The notes beneath the pieces are model-generated. The model made no database searches. It had not been told where the DNA came from and was given only the letters and a program-made list of their open reading frames with translations. Position numbers and translations under genes: made by a program. From Candidatus Bathyarchaeota archaeon (lineage in GTDB: Archaea > Thermoproteota > Bathyarchaeia > Bathyarchaeales > DTEX01), in the NCBI GenBank assembly GCA_018397065.1, contig JAGTRI010000005.1, forward strand, positions 1-64,000: a stretch of DNA of 64,000 nucleotides, read 5' to 3'. Shown in pieces: positions 15,168 through 44,915 of this stretch (position 1 is the first letter of the stretch; each line of letters opens with the position of its first letter).

Positions 15168-15253
15168 ATATTCTTGAAGCTTGAAGCAACGTCTCTGGGT
15201 ATCCAAAAGCCTTTTTCGGCTTATATGATTCTTAATGTTTGGAGGACCAAAAA

Positions 15254-16612
15254 ATGTCAGTGAAGAAAGTTTTTAGTTACATTGACTCGCATGTTAACGA
15301 GTTTGTTGAGGACTTAAGGACGCTTTGTGTTCAGCCAAGCATATCGGCTCAAGACAAGGGCATTAGCGAATGCGTCGAGACTCTTAAAGACATGATGGCT
15401 GACGCTGGAATCTGCGTCAAAGTTGTCTCCGTCAAAGACGGCAATCCCGTTGTTTTCGGCGAGCTCAAAAGCAGAGAAGCCAATCAGACTTTAGGTTTCT
15501 ACAACCATTATGATGTGCAGCCTCCTGAGCCTTTGGATCTTTGGGATTTTCCTCCTTTTGAGGCTAGAATTAAGGACGGTAAAATTTTTGCTCGAGGTGT
15601 TGATGACAATAAGGGAAGCCTCGTAGCACGCATAGAAGCTGTAAAGGCTTTGAAGGCGGTTTACCACGACTTTCCTGTGAACCTAAAGTTTTTCGTCGAA
15701 GGCGAGGAGGAGATTGGAAGCCCGCATCTCGGATCATTCGTAAATGAAAACATGGATCTTCTGAGGGCTGACGGGTACGTGTGGGAGGGTGACGGAGTGG
15801 ATGGACAGAACAGGCCGAGCGTTAGTCTAGGAGTCAAAGGTATACTTTACGTGGAATTCAGAGCTAAGGGACCAAAAAGGGATGTGCACTCCTCCCTGGC
15901 TCCGATTGTGCCTAACCCGGCGTGGAGGCTTGTTTGGCTGCTTTCGTCATTGAAGGGGCCTGATGAAAAAATTAGGATTCCAGGATGGTACGACGAGGTT
16001 GTTCCGCCAACCGAAAAAGACATTCAACTCCTTAAGCAGGCGCCTTTCGACGAAAAAGCGGATAAAGAAGAGCTTGGACTTACGGAGTACCTTGGCGGAG
16101 TAACGGGTGTTGAAAGCCAGAGGGTTCTACGGTTTTCTCCGACGTGCAACATCGCTGGGTTTGAGGCGGGCTACACGGGTCAGGGTTCAAAGACTGTTCT
16201 TCCTTCTGAGGCGATGGTTAAGGTTGACTTTAGGCTTGTTGAGGCTCAGAAACCTGATGTTCAGTTTAGGAGGCTTAAAGAGTACTTACATAATTTAGGG
16301 TTCGGTGACGTAACTGTCGTTTATCACGGTGGTTATGAGCCTGCTAAGACCTCGCCTAATGATCCCTTTGTTGTCCGCGTGATTGAAACCGCTGAGAGGG
16401 TTTATGGCTGTAAACCCGTTGTTTGGCCAACTGTTGCTGGGACAAGTCCTTTTTACGTGATCAAGAATTGGATGGGTATCCCTGTTGCATCCGCAGGCGG
16501 CGTTGGATATCCAGGTTCCAAGGTTCATGCGCCTAACGAAAATGTGAGAATCAAGGATTATGTGAATTCAATTAAATTTACCGCTTCGTTGATTCTTTCC
16601 TACAGAATTTGA
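15254..16612 (+). CDS. M20 family metallopeptidase (ArgE/DapE/CPG2-type)
   Basis: FYNHYDVQPPEPLDLWDFPPFEARIKDGKIFARGVDDNKG, EGEEEIGSPHL. ATG at 15254 preceded by GGAGGA (ORF track TTG 15239). Confidence 0.9.
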   Translation: MSVKKVFSYIDSHVNEFVEDLRTLCVQPSISAQDKGISECVETLKDMMADAGICVKVVSVKDGNPVVFGELKSREANQTLGFYNHYDVQPPEPLDLWDFPPFEARIKDGKIFARGVDDNKGSLVARIEAVKALKAVYHDFPVNLKFFVEGEEEIGSPHLGSFVNENMDLLRADGYVWEGDGVDGQNRPSVSLGVKGILYVEFRAKGPKRDVHSSLAPIVPNPAWRLVWLLSSLKGPDEKIRIPGWYDEVVPPTEKDIQLLKQAPFDEKADKEELGLTEYLGGVTGVESQRVLRFSPTCNIAGFEAGYTGQGSKTVLPSEAMVKVDFRLVEAQKPDVQFRRLKEYLHNLGFGDVTVVYHGGYEPAKTSPNDPFVVRVIETAERVYGCKPVVWPTVAGTSPFYVIKNWMGIPVASAGGVGYPGSKVHAPNENVRIKDYVNSIKFTASLILSYRI

Positions 16613-42109: not shown

Positions 42110-42927
42110 ATGCCTGAGCTTCCTGAATTACTGTGATAGCCTCACAGGTGCACAGGAAACTTTATGGGGAAACGGTTGCTGAAGCTGAATCGAGGCAGCC
42201 GAAAAACCTTAACATGCCTGTGGCACAGTTTGTTGAAACCATTAAAGGTAAAACTGTTCGTGAAGTGACAAGCAAGGGTAAATGGATGTTTCTTAAGCTT
42301 GAGCCCTCGCTCTTTTTGCTTATTAACCTCGGGATGTACGGTGAACTTCTCTACTATGTCAACAGGCAAAAACTGCCTGAACGCTACCAGTTTAAACTGA
42401 AATTTTCTGATGGAAGCGGGTTCACGATATTCTTTTCGTGGTTTGGATACGTTCACCTTGTCGCTGAAAAGGATTTGAAAAAGCATAGGTTGACGGCTAA
42501 TCTTGGAGCTAATCCTTTAAGCAGCGATTTTTGTTTTGAACGGTTAGAGGACTTGCTCTCGTCGAAGAAGAAGACGAGGATAAGAAAATTCTTGCTGGAT
42601 CAAAAGAGCATATCAGGTATCGGAAACGTGTACGTGCAAGACATACTCTTTCAAAGCAGATTGCATTCAAACCGCGAAATCTCAACTTTGCCACAAAAGG
42701 AGAAACAAGACATAAATAACGCAATAAGAGATGTGTTGAACCTCAGCATCCAGCATGGCGGTTTAGCTTACGAGAAAGACTTCTACGGGCAGAAAGGCAA
42801 GTTTGACAGAACAAAATTTCTAGTCGGCTACAAAGAAGGTAGATCTTGCCCTGTTTGTGGAACGATAATTAAAAAAATTAAGGCTGGCAGCACCTCGTCA
42901 TATATTTGCCCGAGCTGCCAACGATGA
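42110..42927 (+). CDS. Formamidopyrimidine-DNA glycosylase (Fpg/Nei family) with apparent 1-nt frameshift after MPELPE
   Basis: ORF 42133-42927 (GTG start, VIASQVHRKLYGETV...; H2TH and zinc finger CPVCGTIIKKIKAGSTSSYICPSCQR intact); canonical ATGCCTGAGCTTCCTGAA at 42110 is out of frame by one base. Confidence 0.85.
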
Positions 42928-43003
42928 ACTGGCCTGAGTGCTTGGCTATTTCGACCTAGGAAGGCTGAACACAATTTATATCGCGAGTGGCAATCGTTCT
43001 TAC

Positions 43004-44747: not shown

Positions 44748-44915
44748 ATTTTGGTTCGACGATTAGGTAACTTGCAATAATTGCTAAATAACTTTTTCCT
44801 TACGTGCGCATGCAAAAATATTCGTGTTGAATGAATTTGTCGATTTTGTCTGGGGAAGAGGCATATTTCCATATAAATAGGGTCTAACAAAAGGAGTTGT
44901 TGGTGGTGTTTAGGT

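Follow-up and report, generated by a model that had tools for sequence, protein, structure and literature searches.

A split Fpg/Nei DNA glycosylase gene, probably a young pseudogene, in a Candidatus Bathyarchaeota genome

The archaeal Fpg/Nei DNA glycosylase gene at positions 42,110–42,927 of the 64,000-nucleotide stretch of Candidatus Bathyarchaeota DNA analysed here (the window) is probably a young pseudogene. Aligned to all of its intact orthologues, the sequence is a single base short; we infer that the cells themselves carry the deletion and that the gene is non-functional. The proposed course of events is that one base would have been lost from a GAAATT run about 17 nucleotides past the start codon, whereupon translation from the true start would end after eight residues. 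Re-initiation at an overlapping GTG would then yield a product that lacks Pro2, Glu3 and the PELPE strand, and hence one that would be expected to have no base-excision or AP-lyase chemistry. Within the Fpg/Nei family the Schiff-base nucleophile is the amine of the N-terminal proline, which is exposed by removal of the initiator Met and is accompanied by the neighbouring Glu and by a Lys (PMC11323726). With Nei2, AP lyase activity is lost in the P2A and K51A variants and glycosylase activity in E3A and K51A (PMC11323726).

The locus and its domains

The features of the locus, all on the forward strand, are as follows.

42110–42136: what is left of the true start, ATG CCT GAG CTT CCT GAA TTA CTG TGA (MPELPELL*), carrying Pro2 and Glu3; from translation, and matching the sister start ATGCCTGAGCTTCCTGAA
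42124–42126: TGA in the downstream frame; read from the sequence
42126–42128: site of the one-base loss, GAATT in the window and GAAATC in the sister genome; from alignment to the sister
42133–42927: remaining Fpg/Nei gene of 264 codons in the −1 frame relative to MPELPELL*, with a nominal GTG start and a stop at 42927; from the open reading frame and its domain matches
42139–42417: Fapy_DNA_glyco (PF01149), lacking profile positions 1–10; 50.1 bits against a cut-off of 25.5
42502–42762: H2TH domain (PF06831), intact; 70.8 bits against a cut-off of 34.7
42847–42921: C4 zinc finger (PF06827), intact, with all four Cys aligned; 31.6 bits against a cut-off of 21.3

The first-pass annotation, which had been made without database searches, described MPELPELL* at 42110 with the rest of the enzyme in another frame from the GTG at 42133, and this arrangement is what translation gives. 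The stop of the short frame overlaps the GTG of the longer one (GTGA, 42133–42136), the two frames overlap between 42127 and 42136, and a shift of −1 would be needed to join them. The TGA at 42124–42126 means that no start in the downstream frame can include PELPE. This motif is out of frame with 42133–42927, which upholds the earlier statement that the proline nucleophile would be absent from a GTG-start protein. The consequence of the split is chiefly one for annotation: an automatic call of the GTG start would be labelled as an active Fpg, though a catalytic N-terminus is impossible for it.

The same annotation held that the H2TH region and the C4 zinc finger were intact, and the downstream frame gives profile matches to both. 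The Fapy_DNA_glyco profile is covered from position 11 to 104 in the window copy and from 1 to 104 in the sister protein. The closest described relative is Fpg/MutM, the formamidopyrimidine-DNA glycosylase (NCBIfam TIGR00577 and NF002211; PDB 4cis, 1k82 and 1ee8), with which the window copy shares a whole-length match, the H2TH domain and the C4 zinc finger. The active-site Lys of the N-lobe and the Asn of the H2TH region are also common to both, and the window copy has them like the rest of its clade. Unlike Fpg/MutM, the window copy has no in-frame Pro2 and Glu3, nor any other N-terminal amine followed in frame by Glu. Moreover, the zinc-finger Arg of Fpg/MutM, a position which we take to be R258 of E. 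coli Fpg, is Thr throughout the window's clade. The window copy falls below the two Fpg equivalog cut-offs (172.9 against 212 and 165.6 against 203.3), and the intact sister protein likewise scores below them (201.1 and 196.9, respectively).

The lost base: mutation or assembly error

Orthologues were sought in 257 genomes of the class. The first-pass annotation had proposed a comparison with sister genomes, and one of the same genus (JAGTQS010000016.1) carries an intact gene whose start, ATGCCTGAGCTTCCTGAAATCACCGTAATAGCC, encodes MPELPEITVIA, whereas the window reads ATGCCTGAGCTTCCTGAATTACTGTGATAGCC and is one base shorter. The two proteins are 87–88% identical, and their genes align with exactly one base missing, at about 42126 in a run of A. 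The earlier proposal of a base lost after GAA is thereby confirmed by the sister and the other orthologues at the very place that had been named, and the residue left blank in its reconstruction, MPELPE-x-TVIASQVHRKL, is Ile in the relatives (MPELPEIT). The missing base at 42126–42128 would most simply be one A of the AAA run. Residues P2, E3, P5 and E6 are in frame in 20 of the 20 full-length members of the clade other than the window copy, namely the sister and 19 other close orthologues, and because all of these are in frame the one-base loss is a derived state of the window copy and not a trait of the family. The remnant itself goes beyond chance, as the motif that it encodes is the canonical start and its bases match those of the sister one by one except for the lost base. 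Homologues that truly start at the GTG without Pro2, which would have made the split only apparent, were looked for among the relatives and none was found; the homologous clades that lack proline retain ELPE, and start there rather than at the GTG position.

The gene is patchy and dispensable in this lineage, since 18 of 21 family genomes are without a match to PF01149. Elsewhere in the class, other Fpg/Nei-family copies are also broken, being divided over different frames or cut by stops: L110/L163 (G146:C2), L162 (G119:C26), L178 (G068:C20) and L179 (G117:C29). Either loss of frame recurs in the Fpg/Nei family of the class or those assemblies carry errors.

For the window copy too, the organism may have an intact gene, and the missing base may stem from an error of sequencing or assembly or from a variant of a minority strain, the genome having been assembled from a metagenome; we regard this as the less likely account, albeit one to be taken seriously. 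The contig is C42 of a 46-contig assembly that is 72% complete, only a single base is involved, the reading frame is otherwise open and the pairwise omega between window and sister, 0.21, is inside the range of the window's genes. Against this stands a survey in which all indels were listed over the 61.5 kb of the window that could be aligned to the sister genome, with 58 predicted open reading frames, the frameshift rate being that of this 64-kb window. The indel at 42126 is the only one that clearly breaks a gene whose sister copy is intact. All other frame-changing indels are intergenic, lie at the ends of reading frames, form compensated pairs or fall in reading frames that are broken in the sister instead of the window or have a doubtful start (for example, at 15405). 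With only one clear in-gene frame break over such a length, the window assembly is not generally frame-broken, a lone error being possible. Furthermore, the affected run is merely AAA, and this same gene changes faster and is less constrained on the window lineage (see below). The evidence therefore leans towards a real mutation.

Many apparent stops that were obtained by tblastn of the open reading frames were discounted, as they are located in overlapping antisense frames. At 15239–16612 of the window there is a reading frame of 457 amino acids, the first 55 codons of which match the sister in another frame owing to a two-base difference at 15405; here either the sister is frameshifted or the start lies further downstream. 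The sister also has two extra genes beside the glycosylase locus (L022, 7505–9022 and 11019–12236), which are missing from the window at 42994–42996 and about 44798–44842. By eye, the one resembles an FGGY-type sugar kinase (505 amino acids) and the other an enolase-superfamily sugar-acid dehydratase (405 amino acids).

Selection and possible products of the downstream frame

The protein branch leading to the window copy has a length of 0.121, compared with 0.016 for the sister. When residue changes were polarised against the consensus of the 19 orthologues, 15 fell to the window and four to the sister (p = 0.019), and of the columns that are invariant in eight outgroups, ten had changed in the window and one in the sister. 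Two control genes gave window to sister changes of 22:13 and 4:6, and the direct contrast of the glycosylase with them is borderline (p = 0.36 and 0.05). The call of relaxation rests on the per-outgroup relative-rate counts; enlarging the outgroup set weakened the test of private changes, the asymmetry dropping to 13:5 (p = 0.10). Under a codon model, the omega of the window branch is 0.71 against 0.09 elsewhere (likelihood ratio test, p = 2.5e-5) and a value of 1 is not rejected. Once the sister branch is given its own omega, window and sister do not differ significantly (p = 0.13), a consequence of saturation at the synonymous sites to the outgroups. Among the window's genes, whose median is 0.10, the pairwise omega is only towards the high end. 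Taken as it stands, the faster change in the window copy suggests, without proving, relaxed selection.

The downstream frame has gained no stop and, together with the pairwise omega, this indicates that decay, if any, is very recent. Of the single changes possible in this frame, about 4% would create a stop, and the frame would stay open after 20 to 45 neutral changes with a probability of 0.43 to 0.15. Hence, the open frame is no evidence of function. The window copy resembles a frameshift pseudogene in a metagenome-assembled genome in its single-base loss, its intact orthologues and its lineage-specific acceleration, but differs in being very young and in having an open downstream frame.

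Full-length enzyme might still be made if −1 ribosomal frameshifting, programmed or by chance, fused MPELPE to the downstream frame. The frames do overlap and the shift has the necessary direction, and the first-pass annotation had listed translational frameshifting as an option, but neither the sequence nor the relatives support it and we give it hardly any credence. By inspection of 42110–42136, no slippery heptamer of the form X XXY YYZ is found in the frame overlap (CCT GAA TTA CTG TGA), and re-pairing of the P-site codon one base back would be mismatched at every codon. A slippery-site explanation is thus ruled out by the sequence. Moreover, no orthologue uses a shift at this place, the relatives all being encoded in one frame.

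The overlapping stop and start could alternatively couple translation of the two frames, with the resulting N-terminally truncated Fpg being retained as a non-catalytic DNA-damage-binding protein. The GTGA arrangement and the intact H2TH and zinc-finger domains are in keeping with such a product, and related clades in the class have repeatedly dispensed with Pro2. NEIL3 has Val2, and the P2A variant of Nei2 retains glycosylase activity (PMC11323726), which implies that proline is not strictly needed for this activity. NEIL3 and Nei2 P2A are like the window product in lacking Pro2, yet both keep the rest of the N-terminus, which the window product would lose. The loss would include E3-L-P5-E6, which all of the Pro-less clades retain. 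Since the window branch omega is also compatible with 1, and residues near the H2TH signature have been altered (N167S and A169S), a retained binding protein seems very improbable. A young pseudogene remains the preferred reading and, if the loss is real, the archaeon would be without a Pro-type Fpg and left with a divergent paralogue that has Ile in place of Pro.

Fpg/Nei proteins without proline in the class

A class-wide tree of 65 proteins resolves four groups, each monophyletic at 99% ultrafast bootstrap or above.

Group 1: MPELPE; 21 proteins, including that of the window
Group 2: M-ELPE, the sister clade of the window's Fpg; 15 proteins (L115–L119, L121, L122, L138, L144–L147, L149, L151–L153)
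Group 3: M-S-I/V-ELPE(A), a large Bathyarchaeia clade; 21 proteins (L130, L131, L134–L137, L139, L154–L162, L164–L169, L183)
Group 4: M-I-ELPE; 8 proteins (L005/L123 1495–2310, which is G000:C44:19646–20461; L124–L129, L143)

Glu, Asn and the four zinc-finger Cys are retained in all four groups. Groups 1 and 2 also have the catalytic Lys, whereas groups 3 and 4 carry a different residue there (Asn in group 3). Where Fpg has its zinc-finger Arg, groups 1 and 2 have Thr and groups 3 and 4 have Gly. Within group 2, where the start lies some 500 bp into each locus or else at the match itself, the initiator codon occupies the aligned Pro position in all 15 proteins (ATG in 10, GTG in two and TTG in three) and Glu comes next. 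Stops are found upstream at two codons before the start in L138/L150 and at one codon in L151. Methionine that precedes Glu or Ile is normally retained, which would leave the amine of Met as the N-terminal one. Group 2 is a natural Pro-less Fpg clade, possibly with Met as its N-terminal amine. Group 3 is intact as judged from its sequences, but its members are probably not classical lyases.

The second Fpg/Nei-like copy of the window's own genome is the group 4 protein G000:C44:19646–20461, which begins M-I-ELPEA, lacks both Pro and the catalytic Lys and is not in the sister assembly. It shares 53% identity with a plasmid protein of Parabacteroides distasonis, which also belongs to group 4.

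Among the papers searched there was none on Bathyarchaeota together with formamidopyrimidine, and none on Fpg homologues without an N-terminal proline. The Pro-less clades are of more interest than the split gene. They allow one to ask if Met, Ile or Ser can stand in for proline with its N-terminal amine, or if these proteins are lyase-free glycosylases. A fifth and more distant Fpg/Nei-like type starts MVEGPTAKAYAIKI (L173, L174, L175 and L177), and its Val2-Glu-Gly-Pro recalls NEIL3.
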